Source of the DNA: a virus
DNA length: 49,207 nucleotides
Strand: one strand, 5' to 3'
Virus record (IMG/VR): IMGVR_UViG_3300010233_000031
Coordinates: 1 to 49,207 of that record
The translations under genes were made by a program, and so were the position numbers. The notes beneath the pieces were generated by a model. The model saw only the letters and a program-made list of their open reading frames with translations, did no database searches and was not told the DNA's origin. Position 1 is the stretch's first letter. Each line of letters opens with the position of its first letter. Positions 5,039 to 48,556 of this stretch are shown piece by piece.

Positions 5039-5055
5039 TTGGCACGATTCTTGCT
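5039..5055 (+). promoter_or_regulatory. Sigma-54 (-24/-12) promoter of the major capsid gene
   Basis: The sequence TTGGCACGATTCTTGCT matches the known RpoN consensus TGGCACG-N4-TTGC[A/T] at every fixed position, with the required 10 bases between GG (5041-5042) and GC (5053-5054). The predicted start site is near 5066, giving a leader of about 130 bases before the capsid ATG. The phage also encodes a sigma-54 activator (35311-36192), so this promoter is probably its late target. Confidence 0.85.
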
Positions 5056-5062
5056 ATAAAGA

Positions 5063-5137
5063 AGTTGCTTACTAGAAGTCTGTAAGGGCATACAGAGATA
5101 GTTGCTTACTAAAGTTTGTTGAAGGGCATCAACTCGG
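5063..5137 (+). repeat. Imperfect tandem repeat in the capsid leader
   Basis: Two copies of a unit of about 37 bases. Both start with AGTTGCTTACTA (5063-5074 and 5100-5111) and carry AAGGGCAT about ten bases later (5084-5091 and 5122-5129). They lie at or just downstream of the predicted transcription start. They may influence message stability or translation of the capsid gene, or be a binding site. Confidence 0.7.
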
Positions 5138-5198: not shown

Positions 5199-6521
5199 AT
5201 GCCTAGTTATTGCAATTTGCCGGGTTCGTTTAGTCCAGCAGTAATTCAAGCAAATAATCTATTTGCACAACTTCCCTTCTATCTCGTTCATAATGAGATT
5301 AATCAGTATGCCAACTGGAATGAGTTTGACCAAATGTATGGTTCTATTCCTTGGCAGGAAAACATGGGTAACACGATGGAAGCTGTTACTCCTCAGCGTT
5401 CACCAGTTGGCCGTTCGTTCTTCTTTCCTAATCCTATAACTTCCGCAAGTAATAAAGACTTGTATCAAGTTACTGAAAGCAATGAACAGGCTATTCTGTA
5501 TAAACACAAGTATGGTTCGTTTGTGTTTAACTTCATTCCTTCGTTTGCTGCCTTCTGGAATACCTACATTAAGTTCAATAGTGATGATATTGTTAAACAG
5601 ATTGCTGTTTCCAATAATCAATTTATTGAAACTCAGATGTGGTTCAATGCTACTTATGTTTATCTTTGTGGCACTGGATTGATTGGTGGTGCTCCTACTG
5701 CTGCCGGTAATGTTACTCTTAATGCTGCCAATAGCAAAACAGCTAACTGGCTTGTAGCACTTACTACTGGAACTGGTGGTAATAATGGTGCTATTCAAAA
5801 CTTGCATTTGAGGGATGTTTATCGTGCCATTATGAATCTTCAAGATGATTTGGGCGCACCTTCTTTCAATGGTAGTAAGAATATGCCCAAAGACAATGAA
5901 GGATTGAAAGGTAAGTATGCTCTCTTCTGTGGTTCAGAAGATTGGTTTAACTTTACCTTTGACCCTGATGTTCTCAATAAGCTAAATGGTCTTGCTCCCT
6001 GTGACCTCAATCTTGTTACTAATGACTTCAAGGGTAATCTCTTTGGAACTATTACTTGCAAAATTAAGAAGTATCCTATTCGCTACAATACTCAAAACAT
6101 TGTTGATGCTGGTGGTAATGTTCTGTGGGCTGCTGGATTTCCGATTGACCCTGAAATCTTTGATGCTACTGATAATAAGTGGAAACCGAATCCTTATTAC
6201 ACTTCACTCATTAGTGCACCATTCAGTATTGCTTGGCTCTTGGGTGATTCTTTCTGTAAGACTATTAAAGTTGGCCCTCCACCGAAAGAGTTTGCTACAA
6301 AGAATATGTCAGGAGAGAAGTTCTATTCTCTTCGTTGGAATGGTGAAGTTCGCTTAACTGACCAACTTCTCATTATTAACAATGGTGTTCCCGAACTCAA
6401 TGATTTTGGTGAAAACTTGCAGCTTAAAGCACAACTTACACATGGACTAATTATGACTGAACGTCGTTTTGCATTTCCAATGATTATCGCAAGAAGTCGT
6501 CCTGCTGTGGCTACTGTGTAA
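5199..6521 (+). CDS. Major capsid protein
   Basis: 440 residues, following the scaffold-like gene. It is a soluble, Asn-, Phe- and Trp-rich protein without signal peptide or membrane segment. Size and position are those of the HK97-fold shell protein of podovirus-like phages. It has its own strong sigma-54 promoter and long leader, fitting high late expression. The codon usage shifts towards codons such as TTC and CGT compared with neighbours, as is common in very highly expressed phage genes. Confidence 0.8.
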   Translation: MPSYCNLPGSFSPAVIQANNLFAQLPFYLVHNEINQYANWNEFDQMYGSIPWQENMGNTMEAVTPQRSPVGRSFFFPNPITSASNKDLYQVTESNEQAILYKHKYGSFVFNFIPSFAAFWNTYIKFNSDDIVKQIAVSNNQFIETQMWFNATYVYLCGTGLIGGAPTAAGNVTLNAANSKTANWLVALTTGTGGNNGAIQNLHLRDVYRAIMNLQDDLGAPSFNGSKNMPKDNEGLKGKYALFCGSEDWFNFTFDPDVLNKLNGLAPCDLNLVTNDFKGNLFGTITCKIKKYPIRYNTQNIVDAGGNVLWAAGFPIDPEIFDATDNKWKPNPYYTSLISAPFSIAWLLGDSFCKTIKVGPPPKEFATKNMSGEKFYSLRWNGEVRLTDQLLIINNGVPELNDFGENLQLKAQLTHGLIMTERRFAFPMIIARSRPAVATV

Positions 6522-16521: not shown

Positions 16522-16871
16522 TGAACACTCCCACTGTTGGACAACTTATTGATTTTGTCATGCTTAATCGCAAAGACAAGTGCTTCCATGATTACTCAAA
16601 AGAAGAAGTGGCCGGAATGATTATTCAAGCACTCTCTAATAATCTACTCTATTATGCCACTGATTCACTTGGAAATATCTCTGGCATGATTCTTGCTAAA
16701 CAAGAAGATGAAAAGACATTGTGGATAGAAGAGAACTTAGCAATTACATTAAGCAACCTAAAAGCATTTGCAATAAAGGCAAAAGAACAGTTTCCTAATT
16801 ATTCATTTGAAGGATTCAAGTGTCGTAAATCTCGTAAGTATAACAAACTCTTTAACAAACTAACTACTTAA
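16521..16871 (+). CDS. Small GNAT-like virion-associated protein
   Basis: 116 residues. The order of a helical start, a two-stranded turn (YYATDSLGNISGMILAKQED), a further strand and a Lys-rich helix resembles a reduced GNAT acetyltransferase fold. Such proteins lie in the internal-core operons of T7-like phages. No clear acetyl-CoA motif (Q/RxxGxG/A) is visible, so catalysis is doubtful. It follows the adaptor gene by a 1-base overlap. Confidence 0.45.
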   Translation: MNTPTVGQLIDFVMLNRKDKCFHDYSKEEVAGMIIQALSNNLLYYATDSLGNISGMILAKQEDEKTLWIEENLAITLSNLKAFAIKAKEQFPNYSFEGFKCRKSRKYNKLFNKLTT

Positions 16872-16876
16872 ATATT

Positions 16877-17956
16877 ATGTCTGGCTCATCTGGTGGTGGT
16901 CAACAAGCATCTGCTCCACAGGCAACTCCTCAGCAGTTAGCAGATGCTTATATTAGTAATCTTCCAAGCATACTAAACGTAACTAATGCTCAAGCTAATC
17001 CAACAGCACAAGCACTTGCTAGTGCAGCTACTGGTGTTAATCCACTTTATACTCAAAGTGGGCTTAATCAGCTTAATCAGTTTGCTGGTGGGTATCAAGG
17101 TGCTGGCAATAACTTAGCAACTAATCAATCTAATTTTACAGCAGACCTTCTTGGAGGTGCTGGTGCTAGAGCTGCTATTGGTGCTAATAATCTTTCTAAC
17201 ACTCTTAACCCAGCCCAGCGAGCTAGCAATACTCAAGCTGCTAATCTTGTTAATTCTATTAATTTGAATGGCTTAAGTGGTGGAGAACAAGCTGCTGCTG
17301 AGCGTTCTCTTAATCAGTCTAATTATGCAACTGGCAACTTGGGATTAGACAATGCTACTAATGCTGTAAGCAATGCAATGAACTTCGGCAATGCTCTTCA
17401 GGCTAAAAGAGCAGCACTTGGTTCTGCTTTAGGTGCAGCACAAGGAGTTGCCTCAAACCAAAATCAATTTGTCAATCCAGTTGGAACTGCACTTGGGAGT
17501 GGAAATGTTTCTAGTAACTTTGGCTTAGGAACATTCAACCCAACTCAAGGTGCTAATGCTGGAAATGCTGCACTTAACTTTGGGTCTGGTGTATTTGGTG
17601 GTCAGGCTAGTAATGCAAGTGCACAGCGTAGTTTCGGTGGCAGTAGTAATACAAGTGGTGCTCTTTGTTGCTTTATATTCTTAGAATCCTATAATGGAAC
17701 TCTCCCTGAATCAGTTCGTCGTTGTAGAGATTACTACTACTTGACACAACCAGAAGTTGCAAGAGGTTATAAGAGTATGGCTAAATGGTTAGTTCCATTA
17801 ATGAAGAAGTATAGCATAGTCCGCTCACTTGTAAATTTAGTGATGGTTAAGCCTATTACAGCTTATGGCGAGTGGCTTGTGGGGAACTCTGAAATCAAAG
17901 GTGGTGAAATGAGTAAGAAATTTTGGTTCTTTATCTGGAAACAACTTGGGAGATAA
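16877..17956 (+). CDS. Internal virion (DNA-ejection) protein
   Basis: 359 residues. Residues 1-260 are low complexity and rich in Ala, Asn, Gly and Gln with many small helices, as in ejected core proteins. From about residue 263 a distinct conserved-looking domain begins (CCFIFLESYNGTLPESVRRCRDYYY...LVPLMKKYSIVRSLVNLVMVKPIT). I have seen this layout in ejection proteins of many environmental podovirus-like phages. It would be injected with DNA and help cross the envelope. Confidence 0.65.
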   Translation: MSGSSGGGQQASAPQATPQQLADAYISNLPSILNVTNAQANPTAQALASAATGVNPLYTQSGLNQLNQFAGGYQGAGNNLATNQSNFTADLLGGAGARAAIGANNLSNTLNPAQRASNTQAANLVNSINLNGLSGGEQAAAERSLNQSNYATGNLGLDNATNAVSNAMNFGNALQAKRAALGSALGAAQGVASNQNQFVNPVGTALGSGNVSSNFGLGTFNPTQGANAGNAALNFGSGVFGGQASNASAQRSFGGSSNTSGALCCFIFLESYNGTLPESVRRCRDYYYLTQPEVARGYKSMAKWLVPLMKKYSIVRSLVNLVMVKPITAYGEWLVGNSEIKGGEMSKKFWFFIWKQLGR

Positions 17957-34411: not shown

Positions 34412-34540
34412 TGGCGACAGTAGAAGGATTCGAACCTTCGGTAACCCTGCTAGATACATTTCACAAGGGACTCTAACCTATCCTCTGTAACGAAGGACGC
34501 AATAGTTAGATTGGCTTAAACCAGACTCGCCCATACTGTC
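34412..34540 (-). tRNA. tRNA-like element with enlarged anticodon loop and variable arm
   Basis: On the - strand the ends form a perfect 7-bp acceptor (GACAGTA/TACTGTC) followed by G and an encoded CCA. The T arm GAAGG-TTCGAAT-CCTTC is canonical, and the D arm GGC...GCC has a GG-containing loop. An anticodon stem TCTAA/TTAGA is present, but the loop between is about 28 bases instead of 7, and the variable region is about 33 bases with a CCCT/AGGG stem. Total length is 129, about 40 more than a long-arm tRNA. U33 would be followed by ATT if unspliced. It may carry a small insertion or be a tRNA mimic. No anticodon is assigned. Confidence 0.6.
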
Positions 34541-35075
34541 ATACATCGTGGAGATTGCCATGTTCTTTTATCGTGGTCATGTCATACCTTCACGGTAGAA
34601 TCCATACCCACTATCTCAAGTTACTATTCAACTCTCGACGAAGTCAAGTTAGTTATAGTTACTAACTAAAACTATACTAATGTTACTTCTAATATTCCAT
34701 GCTCCAAAGAGCAAGAAACTAGAGAGTCATTAGCTCTGCTATACCAGTGTTTGATAGAACAGAATTACCAGTTACATTTTGAACTGATTTAAGTCAAGTA
34801 GCTCACCTACTAGCCTGCCAGATTTGTAGTTCTGGTCAACACTAAAGATGAAGCGTGCGGGGATTGAGTGACCGATTTTAAGTGACACTCTCACCCGACC
34901 TTGCCACAATCTTTCAAGAGAATTACTTCCCCCGTTTGAAGCCGTGCGTCAACACTAATCACTTCATCTAAATTAAATTGGCAACTATATGATATTGAAT
35001 AATCACAAAGCTCTCACTCATTTGGAGAACAGTTTCTTTCCAGAAATAGTGCCAATAAATTACTACTAACAGAAC
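34541..35075 (-). other. Structured non-coding leader behind a sigma-54 promoter
   Basis: No gene is supported in these 535 bases. The region is rich in inverted repeats, including a closing stem at 34978-34988 with 35046-35055 (TTGGCAACTAT against ATAGTGCCAA, one bulge). It would be the first transcribed part from the promoter at 35087 and ends in the tRNA-like element. A GTGCGTCAA word at 34945 recurs near 47660. Confidence 0.5.
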
Positions 35076-35086
35076 ATTACCTATAA

Positions 35087-35101
35087 GCATTTTTCATGCC
35101 A
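35087..35101 (-). promoter_or_regulatory. Sigma-54 promoter
   Basis: On the - strand the core reads TGGCATGAAAAATGC, with GG and GC separated by 10 bases. It agrees with the RpoN consensus except for T in place of C in GGCAC and A for the first T of TTGC. Predicted start near 35076. It drives the structured leader, the tRNA-like element and the nuclease/recombinase operon. Confidence 0.75.
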
Positions 35102-35124
35102 ACTTATTGGAAGTAGTATTCACA

Positions 35125-35149: not shown

Positions 35150-35314
35150 TTACTCTAACCACTTCTTCATCACTTGAATATATTCTTCATCTGAAGAATA
35201 ACAATCTCGTGGTGGAGGCGATGGCTTACATCCAGCATTAGGATTGAAATAATACATTAATACAAAACCATAGCCAATGATACCAATTAATCCAATTAGC
35301 AATATATAAATCAT
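35150..35314 (-). CDS. Small membrane protein coupled to the sigma-54 activator
   Basis: 54 residues. A hydrophobic N-terminal span (MIYILLIGLIGIIGYGFVLMYY) precedes a short soluble tail with two Cys and a Pro run (CKPSPPPRDC). The start overlaps the stop of the activator gene by ATGA, so the two are translated together. It could anchor or inhibit the activator, as PspA-like partners do for PspF; this is only suggested by the pairing. Confidence 0.6.
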   Translation of the reverse strand: MIYILLIGLIGIIGYGFVLMYYFNPNAGCKPSPPPRDCYSSDEEYIQVMKKWLE

Positions 35315-36192
35315 AATTTTCCTAATGTATCATACCTAATGATATGTCTCTGAATACTTCTAACATTCAAACTCAAATCCAAATTACCAGAACTTAATTC
35401 CTTACTATACTTCTCTAAGAACTTCTTACCTTTAGGAATTGATTCAGCTATTGGAATACAATCACACAGTCTCTCTCGCAATGGTCTAATGTCAAGTTCA
35501 AGTGTGCTTATGCGGGCATATAAGTCCTCACGAAAGATACCATCAGTAACCATCTTCTTTAAATCTCTATGAGTAGCACACACAAACTTACACTTAATCT
35601 CTTCATCAACTGTGCCACCTACTTTCCTTACAGTGTTCTCTTGCAATACTCTCAGCAACTTAGCCTGAGTATGAAGTGGAAGTTCTCCAACTTCATCAAG
35701 AAACATTATCCCTGCTTTGGCACTGACAAATAGTCCCGGTTTATCTTGAGTGCTTCCTGTATAACTACCCTTCACACTACCAAATAGTTCTGACTCAACA
35801 AGTTCAGAAGGAAGTGCCGCAACATTGACAGCTTTAATTGGCTCACCTTTTCTATCACCTATCATTGACTTTGCTATCAATTCTTTACCAGTTCCTGTTG
35901 CACCATATATTAGAACTGGATAGTTAGTCTTAGCTATTAATCTCGCATCCTCTTTCATTTGGAGAGTGAGAGGGTCTTGAGTGATAAACTGACGAAGATA
36001 CATTTCACCTTGAGTAAGGGCATCTTTCAACTTACCATCTTCAATAAAGTATGGAAGTTTCCATTGCTCTATTTTAGATTGAACTGCATCTATCATTATA
36101 CCTTCAACATCAGTAGCTAACATTGCTTCTAATGTCTCACGACGAGGTGCTGTTGGGAGGTCGGGGCGGATTTGAGGTTGTGGGATGTTCAT
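35311..36192 (-). CDS. Sigma-54 activator (AAA+ enhancer-binding protein) without DNA-binding domain
   Basis: 293 residues. The AAA+ domain covers about 70-285: Walker A GATGTGKE (97-104), ELFG (135-138), the sigma-54 contact loop as GSYTGS (142-147; consensus GAFTGA), Walker B GIMFLDE (161-167), the sensor-like CATHRD, and FREDLYAR with the expected arginine fingers. It ends soon after an NVRSIQRHI helix that matches the usual NVREL segment, so the Fis-type HTH found in most family members is absent. The 70-residue N-terminal region is helical and resembles no known sensor. It should use ATP to open RpoN-promoter complexes. The phage has five such promoters. The Phe-to-Tyr and Ala-to-Ser changes in the loop are mild. 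Confidence 0.85.
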   Translation of the reverse strand: MNIPQPQIRPDLPTAPRRETLEAMLATDVEGIMIDAVQSKIEQWKLPYFIEDGKLKDALTQGEMYLRQFITQDPLTLQMKEDARLIAKTNYPVLIYGATGTGKELIAKSMIGDRKGEPIKAVNVAALPSELVESELFGSVKGSYTGSTQDKPGLFVSAKAGIMFLDEVGELPLHTQAKLLRVLQENTVRKVGGTVDEEIKCKFVCATHRDLKKMVTDGIFREDLYARISTLELDIRPLRERLCDCIPIAESIPKGKKFLEKYSKELSSGNLDLSLNVRSIQRHIIRYDTLGKL

Positions 36193-38392: not shown

Positions 38393-40642
38393 TTATTCTT
38401 CCTCTCCAGACTCATCTATTATTCCACTCTCATCATCTTTTTTACCCTCAGTGGATGCTAATAGCTCAGTCATTGTTTTTGCTTTCTTGTTTGGGTTATT
38501 ACCATACATGATAATATCCTGCCATGATTCATGTTGCTTTACTACACTACTTATACATGAAAGTTTCTTTGAGACAATATATCCTATATCAACTTCTATT
38601 GTGCCAGCATAGCAAATGATATATTGTTCTGTCTCGCTAAGAGAAGTAAGTCTTGGACACCTGCCAACACCCTGCACCAGCTCAATAGCATTGTAAGTGA
38701 GTGCTACAAAATTTCTTCTAGGGCGAACTGGTACTTTAGGAATGTCCTCTTCTACAACATAACCACTTGGTTTTCTTCTGCATTTGAACTCAGTAAACTC
38801 ATCAGAATGATGAAGAGATAATCCAACACCACCAGCACGGAAAGTATAGATACAAAATAGTGATTTCCCACTTTGAAATCTATCTATCTCTCGTTGCCTA
38901 TCATCCATTGATTGAAGTCCAAGTCTAAGATGCTCAGGCAAATCTAGTATTTCTCTATCTTCAACCTCTTCTAAATCCATATCCCTAATCATCTCTTCTG
39001 CTGAAGAGCCAAGTGCCTTCATCTTATCATCAAGAGCCTTAATCTTCTTCTTAGTCTTTTGTTTCTCTGTAAGTTGTGTTTGACCACCTCCCCAAACAAG
39101 AGATATATCATTCCTAGTCCATCCATGCACATCAATTAGTTCTTGAACAATCTTAATTATTGTTCCCTTAAACTTAACAGCAGCACAGGCAGCTTTACCA
39201 TCTTTTCTTACAGCATCATTCATCATTTTGGCAAAGCCCGGAGCATGGCATATTTCAGCAGCCATTTGTTGTTTTAACAGAATAGTGAAAATGAAATTAC
39301 CACTAGCAACTCCACCTTCAATCTCTGCTTCCATCTTTGCTTTCTCTTTGAGAAAACGTTCCCATGCTGTTTCATAGAAAATTCTTTTCTCCTCATCTTC
39401 AAATGGAATTACTTTAACTTCATTCTTAGCTTGAAATTGTGGTTTAACTCCTCTTACTCTTACAATCCAAGGTTCTAAGTCTTTCATCAAGCGTTCAATG
39501 GCAGCTTGATTATAGTCTTTAGGGTCTGCTGGTGCTGCTATTTGAGCTGCATAAGTAGGCCAGTTATCGTTAGTGAGAACAGTGCCAACAGGAAAACCAA
39601 GATGGTGTAAGGGTCTATGAGTGCTGACAGCAAAGGCTTGTGCTTCAGATACTCTAGTGAAAGGGGTAGCACTAATGCTAACAAGACAAGCGTTATTAGG
39701 GATATTATTATAAGCATAAATTATTTTAGTTTGAGTTGAACCAGAATTTTTAGCACCTTGAGATTCATCAAAAAGAACAACACATGGTTGTATATTACGC
39801 TTCCACTTCCAATCATCTACTTCTTCACCACCCTGCATCTTCACTTCATTCTTTACCCAAAACTCACCAGCACCTGAACGTAGTTGTTCAATGTTAATTA
39901 CTTCAACATCAACATTGGCTTGAATGTCATAGCCTGTTTTGAACACTCTGGAAATTTGTGGTAAGATGGTAGTCTTACCAATATAGAGATATGGTATATG
40001 AGAAAAGGTTTTCATGTGTTCATAGTTATCATCAAGCAACCTTCTCACCAATCCTGCTAACATATAACTCTTACCAGTCCCTGTGCCAGAAAGAAGAAGA
40101 ACACCTGTCTTACGTTCCTTAACTATTTTGTCATAGAGCTCTTTGATTGCTTTCTTTTGAAACCAGAAGTGGTTGGCTTTTTCTTTTGGTGAAGGGTGGA
40201 GTCCGTAGTCATTGGAGGAGTTGAAGCCTTCTTGTTCTTTAACTTCTGATACTGTATCACTGACTTCTGCAATGCCTTGCTGGCTTGTGGATACAGGTTG
40301 TACCACAATGTTACCATCTGTCTTGCTCTCCGTTTTGTTATCTTTGGCTGATTCTCTAGAAATAGGTATTTCCTTTTTAGATAATTGTGCAGGCTCATTT
40401 AATTTCCTTTCAAGGTCATCTTCTAAGCCCTTAAGATAAGCATTAAGTTCTTGAAAGCTGACAGGTTTATCTTTCTTTTCTCCCATTTCTCCACTGTTAA
40501 TAGAGAAGTCATCAAAGCCTAGTTTCTTATAAATCAATCCCCAAGTTCGGGCATTGTTAAAAGACCAAGCACTTCTAGCAGCAGCACAGAGATTACTTAA
40601 TCCTTTCTTTTGCTTCTGCTTTAGTTTTTCTTCGGGTGTCAT
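38393..40642 (-). CDS. SF2-type helicase/ATPase
   Basis: 749 residues. After a 150-residue charged N-terminus the helicase core starts: Walker A SGTGTGKS (185-192), DESQ box (VVLFDESQGAKN), SISATPF (motif III), a C-terminal RecA domain with FRAGGVGLSLHH (motif V) and QGVGRCPR (motif VI). This is the layout of SNF2- or strawberry-notch-like phage helicases. It probably remodels protein-DNA or replication forks. It ends 7 bases before the start of the next gene. Confidence 0.75.
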   Translation of the reverse strand: MTPEEKLKQKQKKGLSNLCAAARSAWSFNNARTWGLIYKKLGFDDFSINSGEMGEKKDKPVSFQELNAYLKGLEDDLERKLNEPAQLSKKEIPISRESAKDNKTESKTDGNIVVQPVSTSQQGIAEVSDTVSEVKEQEGFNSSNDYGLHPSPKEKANHFWFQKKAIKELYDKIVKERKTGVLLLSGTGTGKSYMLAGLVRRLLDDNYEHMKTFSHIPYLYIGKTTILPQISRVFKTGYDIQANVDVEVINIEQLRSGAGEFWVKNEVKMQGGEEVDDWKWKRNIQPCVVLFDESQGAKNSGSTQTKIIYAYNNIPNNACLVSISATPFTRVSEAQAFAVSTHRPLHHLGFPVGTVLTNDNWPTYAAQIAAPADPKDYNQAAIERLMKDLEPWIVRVRGVKPQFQAKNEVKVIPFEDEEKRIFYETAWERFLKEKAKMEAEIEGGVASGNFIFTILLKQQMAAEICHAPGFAKMMNDAVRKDGKAACAAVKFKGTIIKIVQELIDVHGWTRNDISLVWGGGQTQLTEKQKTKKKIKALDDKMKALGSSAEEMIRDMDLEEVEDREILDLPEHLRLGLQSMDDRQREIDRFQSGKSLFCIYTFRAGGVGLSLHHSDEFTEFKCRRKPSGYVVEEDIPKVPVRPRRNFVALTYNAIELVQGVGRCPRLTSLSETEQYIICYAGTIEVDIGYIVSKKLSCISSVVKQHESWQDIIMYGNNPNKKAKTMTELLASTEGKKDDESGIIDESGEEE

Positions 40643-41803: not shown

Positions 41804-42358
41804 TTACGCCACAACTTCTTTCGCCTTACGAGCAGCAACAATCTTATCATACTTCTCAGTAATTGCAGCTTTCTTAGCACGCAACGGCTTGAGATGAGTG
41901 ACAGTGTTGGCAGTCATTTCAGCATACAACTGTTGAACACGTGGGTCATCAAGAGGCGCACCATCATCCACAAGGGAAGTGAGTTGGTCACCCAACTTAA
42001 CATTAACATCAGTCCATGATGCAATTTCATCATCAATACCACCAAGTGTCTCACGACCAGCGGTGAAGTCGGCTGCATCTTCATTCCATGCAGTCCAATT
42101 CATTTCACCAGTCTCACTATTGAAATGCTTAATAGCAAGTTCAATAAAGATGAGACGAGTATACTTATTAACTGATTCAAGAATATCTCCGAACCATGTC
42201 CGAACAGAGGGGTCTTTATCAATCTGTTCAAACGTAACATATGGATAGAAGAAATCCATATTTGGAAACGTCTTGTGATTCTTACTAGTTGTTCCTTTCG
42301 TAAATGCAAAGTCCACATTATTACGAGTCACTACTGGGGCTTTAACTTCATTACTCAT
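41804..42358 (-). CDS. Sigma-54-driven protein of unknown function
   Basis: 184 residues, acidic N-terminus and a basic helical C-terminus (LRAKKAAITEKYDKIVAARKAKEVVA). The composition is GC-richer, with less biased codons than its neighbours, similar to the other isolated sigma-54 gene at 48146. It has its own sigma-54 promoter (42463) and a hairpin at its end, so it is probably made in large amounts. No family recognised. Confidence 0.65.
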   Translation of the reverse strand: MSNEVKAPVVTRNNVDFAFTKGTTSKNHKTFPNMDFFYPYVTFEQIDKDPSVRTWFGDILESVNKYTRLIFIELAIKHFNSETGEMNWTAWNEDAADFTAGRETLGGIDDEIASWTDVNVKLGDQLTSLVDDGAPLDDPRVQQLYAEMTANTVTHLKPLRAKKAAITEKYDKIVAARKAKEVVA

Positions 42359-42462
42359 TTGTTTTCTTTCTTTTTGTTTGTTTATGTTTCTATGTTCAGA
42401 GATAGTTCATCAATTGATTGAACCATCACTAAAGTTTCTTTGACCTTAACACATATACTCTA

Positions 42463-42477
42463 GCATTTATCATGCCA
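42463..42477 (-). promoter_or_regulatory. Sigma-54 promoter of the 184-residue gene
   Basis: Core TGGCATGATAAATGC on the - strand with 10 bases between GG and GC. Predicted start near 42452, leader about 94 bases. The 18-base block CTAGCATTTATCATGCCA (+ strand 42460-42477) is identical at 48959-48976. An ATTA-GTAG-TAAT repeat (42486-42497) lies just upstream. Confidence 0.8.
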
Positions 42478-42510
42478 AAGTTATTATTAGTAGTAATTGT
42501 TGTTCAAAGG

Positions 42511-46466: not shown

Positions 46467-46609
46467 TGGTGAGCGCGGCAGGATTTGAACCTGCAACCAC
46501 GAGATTTGGATTTTTCATTTCTGAAAGTTGTCCAGCACTATCTGCTCTCATTTAAGAGTTCGCCTCTGGTCTATTGTGCGTCAGCGTCTTTACATTCCGC
46601 CACGCGCTC
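46467..46609 (-). tRNA. Second tRNA-like element, with about 55 extra bases
   Basis: On the - strand: 7-bp acceptor GAGCGCG/CGCGCTC, discriminator A, encoded CCA; T arm GCAGG-TTCAAAT-CCTGC; D arm GCG...CGC after U8-G9, with the 'TGGCGGAAT' look of a leucine-type tRNA. The 3' half contains a hairpin TGGA...TTTCA-GAAA-TGAAA...TCCA. No normal anticodon stem with a 7-base loop is found; the total is 143 bases against about 88. Similar excess in the element at 34412 suggests a common insertion type or a tRNA mimic. Confidence 0.55.
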
Positions 46610-46619
46610 ATAAATTGAA

Positions 46620-46866
46620 TAGTGACAAGTGCAACTACTTATATTTCATTGGCATACAGTCAATTTAATTTGAACGGTAGAGTTGCCACTTCAAATCAAA
46701 TCCTACAGATAAGTAATCTACACACTCTGTAGTTATCCTGTTAAACCTTGTCACTAACTAGCACAATCATTCGGTTGGATAATCAGCCACGCCAAGTTGG
46801 TGATGGCTAAAGATTATTGTTTGATTGTGCTAGTTAATGCACAGTAAGTGTTGAACTGCTACTGTG
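46620..46866. other. Array of stem-loop units downstream of a small gene
   Basis: Three units in a row: TAGTGACAAG (46620-46629) pairs with CTTGTCACTA (46747-46756); AACTAGCACAATCA (46756-46769) pairs perfectly with TGATTGTGCTAGTT (46822-46835), enclosing two inner hairpins; and CACAGTA (46840-46846) pairs with TACTGTG (46860-46866). No gene is seen. In the - strand transcript they would separate the gene at 46884 from the tRNA-like element. They could be processing sites or small RNAs. Confidence 0.55.
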
Positions 46867-46883
46867 ATTCAGTTTGATATATC

Positions 46884-47063
46884 TTATAGTTTGTAATCAT
46901 CATTCATTGCATCACAGACTTTTTGTGCGTTGGTTCGCAATGAAAAATGATATTTTTGTTTCATCCATTTCAGTTTATCTGTGATAATATAATAATCTTT
47001 AGCATATAAATCCACTGTCTCTTTTTGGTGGAATTTTCTAACCTTGAATCGTCTTGTTTTCAT
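46884..47063 (-). CDS. Small basic protein behind a sigma-54 promoter
   Basis: 59 residues (MKTRRFKVRKFHQKETVDLY..., ending QKVCDAMNDDYKL) with ten Lys and four Arg. It starts at AAATAAACTATG, the commonest start context here, about 20 bases after the predicted sigma-54 start site. Basic and helical; nucleic-acid binding is plausible. Unknown family. Confidence 0.65.
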   Translation of the reverse strand: MKTRRFKVRKFHQKETVDLYAKDYYIITDKLKWMKQKYHFSLRTNAQKVCDAMNDDYKL

Positions 47064-47094
47064 AGTTTATTTGTTCGATACAACTTGCATACAA

Positions 47095-47109
47095 GCAAGT
47101 TTCATGCCA
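47095..47109 (-). promoter_or_regulatory. Sigma-54 promoter
   Basis: Core TGGCATGAAACTTGC on the - strand, with 10 bases between GG and GC and a full TTGC -12 element. Predicted start near 47084. Just upstream lies a perfect CTAATTA-GTGG-TAATTAG repeat (47114-47131). It would serve the gene at 46884, the stem-loop array, the second tRNA-like element and possibly the run of small genes beyond. Confidence 0.8.
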
Positions 47110-47171
47110 CTTTCTAATTAGTGGTAATTAGTATACCTGCCCTTTATGTTTCTTCTTCACTGAAATTAGAG

Positions 47172-47336
47172 TTAGGAGTGCCTTGTGAGAAAGAGTTGTT
47201 CTAGTGGCACAAGAGCACGACCTTGTGGTCTTTGCCTTTTGACACTAAATCTGCTAGTGATTTTCTTTGTTGGTCTAAAGGCATATCGTTTAGCGCGAGT
47301 ATAGCCTAGTAAGCGTTGGAATTCGTTGTTTGTCAT
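47172..47336 (-). CDS. Small Arg-rich protein
   Basis: 54 residues (MTNNEFQRLLGYTRAKRYAF, then KRQRPQGRALVPLEQLF). Highly basic. It lies between the CTAG-rich stretch and the 47095 promoter. The start context is A/T-rich (AAATTTATG). Unknown; moderately supported by length and neighbour spacing only. Confidence 0.45.
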   Translation of the reverse strand: MTNNEFQRLLGYTRAKRYAFRPTKKITSRFSVKRQRPQGRALVPLEQLFLTRHS

Positions 47337-47344
47337 AAATTTAA

Positions 47345-47494
47345 TTATATTGCATAATCAACAACTATTCTTACACAAGATGGATAGCGGCGTTGATACT
47401 CTTTCAATATTTGAATATCTATTTTGTAGATATATTGAAATTCTATTGTGCAAATTTGAAATCCTTTAGCTGTGTATAATGATAGTTTTGTCAT
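47345..47494 (-). CDS. Small protein behind a leader hairpin
   Basis: 49 residues (MTKLSLYTAKGFQICTIEFQ..., ending VVDYAI), 8 bases before the next small gene. Its start codon lies at the base of a stem (47494-47501 with 47551-47558, TAACACTA/TAGTGTTA) that could hide the start. Unknown function. Confidence 0.5.
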   Translation of the reverse strand: MTKLSLYTAKGFQICTIEFQYIYKIDIQILKEYQRRYPSCVRIVVDYAI

Positions 47495-47558
47495 AACACT
47501 AACTAGCTAATGAGGACTGGAATGGATAGTCATGGTGAGAATCAACTAGCTAGTGTTA
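47494..47558 (-). promoter_or_regulatory. Leader stem-loop at the start of the 49-residue gene
   Basis: TAACACTA at 47494-47501 pairs with TAGTGTTA at 47551-47558; inside it are ACTAGCT and ACTAGC pieces. The first base of the start codon belongs to the stem, so translation could depend on opening it. Confidence 0.45.
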
Positions 47559-48079
47559 GGACACTACAATCATATATCTACAAACAGAGATAAATCTAGT
47601 AACTATTACTGCTTTGCCGATTACTAGAATACATTCACTAGAAATCCTATATCTCTAGTGTGCGTCAATCCTTACGTTATATCATTTTCGCACTCTGTTT
47701 CTTTAGGAAGTTTCATTACTCATTAGACTGTTATCTTGTGAAGGATACTTTTCGTATTTCTACAATATGTATCAATCTATCTGGACACAAGTTTGCTCTA
47801 GCTGAAACTTAATCCGCACTAGATGATGTTCTAGTGACTAACTAACCAGTGGCGAAGTCTTGAAGTCATTCTATTCTAGTTTAGTATCATTTGAAGGATT
47901 AAATGAATAAATCAATTCAATCTTTGAAGTGTTCACAATCTAGTGAACTGGATTTAACTAGCTTCAAGTGTGTGCATCCTCTGTCTTATACAATTATACA
48001 TTGAAACATTGTAGTCTCAATCTATTTTAGCATTAGACTATCCTAGTGCAATCCATCGCTTGTTATTTGTCATGGAAAA
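47559..48079. other. CTAG-rich non-coding stretch with many small dyads
   Basis: No open frame with a plausible start was found. CTAG occurs 14 times from 47505 to 48043, often as CTAGTG or CACTAG. Small perfect hairpins include 47817-47836 (CACTAGA...TCTAGTG) and 47931-47948 (GTTCAC...GTGAAC). At about 35% G+C roughly two CTAG would be expected. It could be a multi-site binding region, or a set of structured RNAs. Confidence 0.5.
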
Positions 48080-48128
48080 TAAAAATGGACGTTAGGTTCA
48101 ACATATTTCAGTTGTCACCTAACGTCCA
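48080..48128 (-). terminator. Rho-independent terminator of the 136-residue gene
   Basis: On the - strand TGGACGTTAGGT pairs perfectly with ACCTAACGTCCA (12 bp, extended by CAAC/GTTG after a short bulge) and is followed by TTTTTATTTT. It lies 18 bases beyond the gene's stop. Confidence 0.85.
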
Positions 48129-48145
48129 GCGGAACGCGCAAACTA

Positions 48146-48556
48146 TTACACTTTCAAGTCGTCAATCCACTTTTCCAGCTCATCCGTCAAGCGGAACTTG
48201 CTGAAACCGTAACTAACGTGATTAACTCCGGCATCACTAATCCATTGCAAAGCGCGAACGATTGCCAAGGGGTTTGTCAAAGTAATCCCCTTTGCTTTGC
48301 TGGCGTCGGCAATGGTAACTTTACCATCCTTGTTACCCTTGCCAATTTTGATACTGGCGGTTGCATTGCGGAAAGCTGCCCCTGCATCACTTCCAGCTTG
48401 CTTGGCAATCTTCTCTGCTTTTGCAGATTCAATCCCAAACCGTTCAATGCAACCCTTGTAGATACGCTCCATTTCGGAACTATATCGGCCATTGCCAAAG
48501 TCGACCTTTGTGCTTGATTGTGTTTCGTTTGCGGGTTTTTCGAGTATAGTTGTCAT
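48146..48556 (-). CDS. First sigma-54-driven protein, unknown
   Basis: 136 residues. Lys/Ala-rich helical middle (ESAKAEKIAKQAGSDAGAAFRNATASIKIGKGNKDGKVTIADASKAKG) and a C-terminal helix pair (WISDAGVNHVSYGFSKFRLTDELEKWIDDLKV) that might be a DNA-binding fold. GC-richer than most neighbours. It is a stand-alone unit with its own promoter (48962), a 390-base leader and a perfect terminator, as expected of an abundant or key early product. Confidence 0.65.
   Translation of the reverse strand: MTTILEKPANETQSSTKVDFGNGRYSSEMERIYKGCIERFGIESAKAEKIAKQAGSDAGAAFRNATASIKIGKGNKDGKVTIADASKAKGITLTNPLAIVRALQWISDAGVNHVSYGFSKFRLTDELEKWIDDLKV

Follow-up and report, generated by a model that had tools for sequence, protein, structure and literature searches.

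The viral contig IMGVR_UViG_3300010233_000031, analysed here over its full 49,207 nucleotides (the window), holds a single sigma-54 activator gene, whose product is very likely a bare AAA+ enhancer-binding protein (bEBP) that acts as the middle-to-late transcription switch of the phage through sigma-54 promoters. For its late genes, the whole phage group, in turn, is likely to rely on a virus-borne sigma-54 system, which comprises an enhancer-independent, single-domain activator in all the members, a complete sigma-54 in at least two lineages, and a dedicated promoter for the capsid operon. Sigma-54 is the only type of bacterial sigma factor that requires an ATPase for promoter opening, and it is regarded as a regulatory system of the host. 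The features of the window are listed in Table 1.

Table 1. Features of the 49,207-nt window; residue numbers are those of the activator.
Feature	Position	Strand	Basis
Single-domain AAA+ sigma-54 activator (bEBP), 293 aa	35311..36192	-	Profile, fold, alignment
Sigma54_activat domain (PF00158)	35494..35985	-	E 3.9e-57
Walker A GATGTGKE, residues 97-104	35881..35904	-	K103 invariant in 21 members
L1 loop GSYTGS (GAFTGA position), residues 142-147	35752..35769	-	Sequence
Walker B FLDE, residues 164-167	35692..35703	-	D166, E167 invariant
Arginine fingers R221, R227 (REDLYAR)	35512..35532	-	Invariant in 21 members
Sensor 2 NVR (R278), shortened lid near C terminus	35359..35367	-	Invariant, 21 members
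Sigma-54 promoter TTGGCACGATTCTTGCT, 143 nt upstream of capsid gene	5039..5055	+	Orthologous site, 20/21 genomes
RNA hairpin 1, CTGTA-AGGGCA-TACAG, capsid leader	5080..5095	+	Loop search, covariation
RNA hairpin 2, GTTGA-AGGGCA-TCAAC, capsid leader	5118..5133	+	Loop search, covariation
Major capsid protein candidate, 440 aa, first gene after promoter	5199..6521	+	AlphaFold2/Foldseek
Sigma-54 site CTGGCATGATTCTTGCT, 180 nt upstream of 16877-17956, inside preceding gene	16681..16697	+	Matrix
Sigma-54 site TTGGCATGAAAAATGCT, just downstream of activator, facing noncoding stretch	35086..35102	-	Matrix
Sigma-54 site TTGGCATGATAAATGCT, ~103 nt upstream of 41804-42358	42462..42478	-	Matrix
Sigma-54 site GTGGCATGAAACTTGCT, within long noncoding stretch	47094..47110	-	Matrix
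Weaker sigma-54 site GTGGCATGATAAATGCT, 14.2 bits	48961..48977	-	Matrix

In a Pfam profile search, the activator matched PF00158 (Sigma54_activat) with an E value of 5.8e-55 and 186 bits, against a curated cut-off of 20.2, and its best NCBIfam matches are all activators of the NtrC/NorR/PspF type. The nearest PDB sequences are those of NtrC1 and FleQ, and the AlphaFold2 model (pLDDT 91.6) has FleQ, NtrC1, and FlrC as its nearest solved structures. The original prediction had recognized the AAA+ core of a sigma-54 activator, and had named a profile search and a structure prediction as the checks, with placement in another AAA+ clade as the result that would refute it; the four motifs are indeed present (FREDLY at residues 220-225, the remaining three as in Table 1), and both profiles and fold favour the activators. 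Other identities were considered and ruled out, namely that of a magnesium chelatase, the profile of which (Mg_chelatase) reached only E 5.4e-6 over 44 residues versus 5.8e-55 for Sigma54_activat, and those of AAA_5, RuvB, or other AAA+ proteins, with AAA_5 also giving a far weaker match (E 2.9e-7). Membership of the family and possession of its catalytic residues can be regarded as established on sequence grounds: across 21 aligned phage members, K103, N123 of the switch, T145 of the loop, D166 and E167, R221, R227, and R278 are invariant. The sensor 1 of the window protein is a His, in contrast to the Asn of many activators, and this His is common to 9 of the 21 family members.

The architecture of the protein is reduced to about 65 variable N-terminal residues followed by the bare AAA+ module, and the chain terminates 15 residues past R278 of sensor 2, whereas bacterial activators continue into an HTH domain. 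No HTH was detected by Pfam or in the AlphaFold2 model, the other family members examined likewise end without one, and the activator has neither a receiver nor a GAF domain, the regulatory domain being absent. This observed loss of the DNA-binding domain had passed unnoticed in the original prediction, as had the reading of GSYTGS as a GAFTGA variant and the occurrence of the gene throughout the phage group. Given that group 5 bEBPs and FleT lack the HTH, this domain is usual in a bEBP, but not defining.

According to a 2020 review, FleT is the only known bEBP devoid of both regulatory and DNA-binding domains (PMC7175178). This protein, from Rhodobacter (Cereibacter) sphaeroides, resembles the phage activator in having neither a receiver nor a DNA-binding domain; however, it is a bacterial flagellar regulator, while the phage proteins (235-304 aa) form a family of their own, which extends through the lineage and is linked to phage promoters. 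The group 5 bEBPs FlgR and CtcC have no DNA-binding domain, and for this reason are thought to be enhancer-free (PMC7175178, PMC7482065), but they retain an N-terminal receiver under kinase control, of which the phage proteins have none. The AAA+ domains of NtrC1, FleQ, and PspF share fold and catalytic residues with the phage activator, although the full proteins carry regulatory and/or HTH domains and the lid of the phage protein is shorter.

The sigma-54 sites were identified with a matrix that represents the published consensus. Exactly five sites of 15 bits or more were found in the window, compared with 0.9 expected in shuffles, and they are the five promoters (5039, 16681, 35086, 42462, and 47094) of which the original prediction had spoken. 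When the 16 genomes of the window clade were pooled, the correct N4 spacer yielded 75 strong sites, 50 of them intergenic although noncoding DNA makes up only 13%, while with the wrong spacers (1-3 and 5-7) there were 2-18 sites, of which 0-1 were intergenic. Of the 50 intergenic sites, 46 are oriented towards a gene that lies downstream on their own strand. The elements that define a sigma-54 promoter (GG at -24 and GC at -12) are present, and both the enrichment and the intergenic placement are seen with the correct spacer only; judged from the DNA alone, the sigma-54 sites of the window clade are real. The 16681 site has orthologues in some relatives (for example, G003, G004, G005, and G012). 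A site lies no more than 300 nt past the stop codon of the activator gene in all 16 window-clade genomes, with scores from 12.1 (G004, the weakest) to 19.5 bits, and the stretch that it faces is apparently noncoding in most of them.

The most constant position is found at the capsid gene, where a site within 300 nt upstream was observed in 20 of 21 genomes (per-genome p 0.001-0.022); in 19 of these 20, its distance to the called start is 81-194 nt. The only genome without it, G003, has a site within an ORF that is apparently over-extended. When 14 divergent capsid leaders were aligned, no stretch of invariant columns exceeded the GGCA and TGCT blocks of this site in length, and no upstream sigma-54 signal was detected for two other late-gene starts. 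The product of the gene is a candidate for the major capsid protein, predicted from a model with a confidence of only 58, whose best PDB fold matches by Foldseek are the capsids of Moo19, N4, DEV, B2, and GP4, those of N4, DEV, and GP4 being of the HK97 fold; it has no match in annotated phages, and comparison of portal and capsid profiles with PDB sequences gave nothing useful.

Between the promoter and the start codon of the capsid gene, the leader shows tandem hairpins with an invariant AGGGCA loop. The pair occurs in most genomes of the window clade (11, with a single hairpin in 2 more), with almost none elsewhere in those genomes. Among the loop permutations compared, AGGGCA is by far the most frequent, with 18 occurrences, while the runner-up has 7 and the mean is 2.3. 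The stems covary, with 94.7% of cells paired versus 52% in shuffles, and four of the five pairs change on both sides. A natural guess is that these hairpins are the site for a protein that controls the capsid message.

A second component of the system was found in sister phages. The contig of one relative (G021) ends in an rpoN fragment, and a search with this fragment retrieved 20 further phage contigs with a sigma-54 gene, all 20 of which also hold the activator. Another sigma-54-bearing member of the sister clade is G098, and altogether at least 23 related contigs encode sigma-54, each of them with an activator. The TIGR02395 model is covered from position 1 to 434 in 19 of the 20, and the twentieth, on a cut contig, starts at position 82; 16 of the 21 records searched are above the TIGR02395 cut-off. 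The proteins contain PF00309 (AID, 7e-11), PF04963 (core-binding, 4e-21), and PF04552 (DNA-binding, 3e-49), as well as the RpoN box, and the presence of these genes is shown by sequence. One of the proteins is 429 aa long (L100, 11113-12402). Their identity with bacterial sigma-54 is at most 39%, in a comparison that included only 11 bacterial rows. In the literature searched, the only claim of a phage sigma-54 is that of gp2 from Pectobacterium phage Q19, a putative sigma-54 that relies on a single HHpred match with an E value of 0.67 (PMC7693777). In contrast to this weak claim, the sister-phage proteins match rpoN over 434 positions with an E value of ~1e-88. In the annotated phage collection, the rpoN matches look like host DNA.

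A complete and more divergent genome (G088, 52 kb, repeat-ended) represents a second sigma-54-bearing lineage, with its own 488-aa sigma-54 and activator (L278, 2730-4196, and L280, 11127-11975, respectively). This sigma-54 is 33% identical to the other phage copies. In this genome, the helicase gene is directly followed by the activator gene, and, provided that the repeat ends close the map, rpoN lies ~2.6 kb further on.

Neither the window nor the genomes of its clade gave a match to TIGR02395, and no sigma-70 region 2 was detected in them. Since no sigma-54 gene was found in the window phage, it would need the RpoN of the host. The self-contained circuit envisaged in the original prediction does not apply to the window phage for the same reason, while the sister phages do encode a sigma-54 of their own. 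The sigma-54-bearing clade shows no general enrichment of sites, yet each genome has one CTGGCATATCGTTAGCA at the capsid position, with GG and GC elements at the correct spacing.

The distribution of these sites bears on an alternative role for the activator, namely that it acts chiefly on sigma-54 genes of the host (for instance, those for nitrogen, envelope, or stress), reprogramming the cell, with the phage promoters being secondary. Any sigma-54 promoter is a possible target for a bEBP that lacks a DNA-binding domain, and FleT, FlgR, and CtcC provide precedents for such proteins (PMC7175178). This role is nevertheless improbable, as the sites are strongly enriched in the intergenic DNA of the phage and keep a fixed place ahead of the capsid gene, and the sister phages that have their own sigma-54 retain the site at the same capsid position.

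The conserved residues speak to a different proposal, in which the protein would be a decoy that poisons the activators of the host through mixed hexamers without activating phage promoters. The lack of the domains that direct normal activators to DNA would fit such a decoy, but a decoy would have no use for the invariant catalytic residues, the two arginine fingers, and the threonine that contacts sigma-54, and the phage promoters would remain unexplained; the proposal has very little in its favour.

The L1 loop reads GAFTGA in 14 of the 21 members, GSFTGA in 5, GAYTGS in 1, and GSYTGS in the window protein alone. The latter sequence keeps G1, T4, and G5 and differs by the changes A2S, F3Y, and A6S, so that the protein meets the requirement for a GAFTGA loop, albeit with a variant. 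Each change is known singly from a validated activator, as compiled in a survey (PMC3162934): A2S from LevR, F3Y from TouR, and A6S from PrpR. At the Phe position of the PspF loop, Tyr is the only replacement that permits activation, as noted in a study on NorR (PMC2941729). No tested precedent was found in any validated activator for the three changes together. The altered loop could suggest a relative of the bEBPs that, similarly to TyrR, has lost the contact with sigma-54 and works with sigma-70. This is as hard to sustain as the decoy, because Thr4 and both Gly residues are kept, each change taken singly has a precedent among validated sigma-54 activators, two thirds of the relatives have a perfect GAFTGA, and sigma-54 promoters are present.

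The single-domain activator was found in about 80 distinct IMG/VR contigs of one phage group, a number that is our own count across successive scans (4 relatives at first, then 21, and then more) and that leaves out 7 multi-domain activators on contigs without the marker genes of the family. All the family proteins examined are single-domain and within the size range given above, except for one that reads longer and is cut by the end of its contig. Lineage-wide conservation is observed not only for the gene, but also for its context, as it is accompanied across contigs by the same helicase, polymerase, ligase, Sak4, or primase genes, and structural and replication genes are common to the whole group. 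The complete members measure 48-55 kb, and several of them are closed by terminal repeats of ~100-127 bp. When the 21 phage activators were placed in a tree together with 80 bacterial ones, they all fell on one side of a branch with a support of 95; as the bacterial sample was picked by similarity, the tree supports a single origin of the phage proteins, but does not prove it. Although strong activator matches in public annotated phage records mostly look like host contamination, the idea that the gene stems from host DNA, through misassembly or contamination of a viral contig, has practically no standing, being already refuted by synteny (many contigs, several of them repeat-closed, have this gene flanked by the same replication genes), by the separate grouping of the phage proteins in the tree, and by the fact that the multi-domain activators in viral contigs are exactly those without family marker genes.

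Outside the main group, the human gut phage MT121960.1 encodes a 304-aa single-domain activator with a GAFTGA loop (L006, 19770-20684). The structural proteins of the group (window positions 1-24523) gave no convincing match to Pfam or PHROGs families, and the group looks unclassified.

According to these data, a mechanism can be postulated in which the bare activator times the expression of the phage genes. The activator gene is located among the replication genes of the minus strand, with which it is probably cotranscribed, while the plus strand carries the capsid operon; the protein would thus be made before or together with the replication proteins. It would then form a hexamer and contact, by means of the L1 loop GSYTGS, the closed sigma-54-RNA polymerase at the phage promoters, and its use of ATP would open them and switch on the late genes. 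Lacking any domain for binding DNA, it should work from solution and need no enhancer site. Its principal target would be the promoter at 5039-5055, at the start of the capsid/late operon, and the remaining sites would serve other genes and noncoding stretches. For sigma-54, the window phage would rely on its host, in which the presence of rpoN has not been established, and two sister lineages would supply their own. The hexamer, the sigma-54 contact, the ATPase activity, the action from solution, the timing, and the use of host RpoN are all inferred, with no biochemistry behind them. The profile, the fold, the catalytic residues, and a capsid promoter whose position is conserved support what the original prediction had proposed, a phage sigma-54 activator that times phage genes. 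What counts against the mechanism is the lack of transcription, binding, and ATPase data, the use of a matrix written from the published consensus, the triple change in the loop, the His in sensor 1, and the low confidence of the capsid model.

Few clues to the host were obtained. A scan of genome contigs was swamped by bacterial activators, none of the contigs carrying family marker genes, and a search for the capsid in ~1570 genomes from four phyla gave one weak match, on a contig without other family genes. Only 2 of 23 conserved window genes are preceded by a Shine-Dalgarno-like sequence, and the leaders are A-rich, often with AAATAAACTATG, hinting that the host does not rely on Shine-Dalgarno.

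The noncoding DNA of the window holds some additional elements. A tRNA-like sequence at 34412-34540 (minus strand) combines a 7-bp acceptor-like stem (GACAGTA/TACTGTC), a T-arm (GAAGG-TTCGAAT-CCTTC), and a 3' GCCA with an enlarged anticodon arm, and is not called by ARAGORN or Rfam. Downstream of the sigma-54 site that follows the activator, at 34847-34968 (minus strand), lies an element of the form GATTAGTGTTGACGCAC ... AAGGTCGGGTGAGA ... CCCCGCACG, which is present in three genomes only (the window, G004 near 39884, and G016 near 2171) and is closed by the covarying stems GATGAAG/CTTCATC, GTGAAAC/GTTTCAC, and CATGAAA/TTTCATG. A known RNA in the noncoding stretch after the activator is not supported by Rfam. 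Over ~1.6 kb (46556-48146), no ORF reaches 60 aa, and the 47094 site faces into this stretch.

In phage T4, late transcription involves the gp45 clamp together with gp33 and gp55. The mechanism proposed here is similar in that a phage-coded activator switches on the late genes via a polymerase that carries a special sigma factor; however, the T4 proteins are unrelated to the phage activator, and no sigma-54 takes part in the T4 system. The family of phage sigma-54 activators was not found described in the open-licence literature searched, an absence that is not proof. The type of machine is known, and its possession by phages, its minimal architecture, and its pairing with a phage sigma-54 are new, as far as could be found. 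If these phages own the activator, and some of them the sigma factor as well, they would have a tight, ATP-gated on/off switch of late genes that hinges on one small protein. The family would also offer a natural minimal activator of ~235-300 aa, without regulatory or DNA-binding domains, for mechanistic work, and an orthogonal set of sigma-54, activator, and promoter for synthetic biology. A prediction that follows is that the phages of the window clade would require hosts that bear rpoN, while the sister phages with their own sigma-54 may not.
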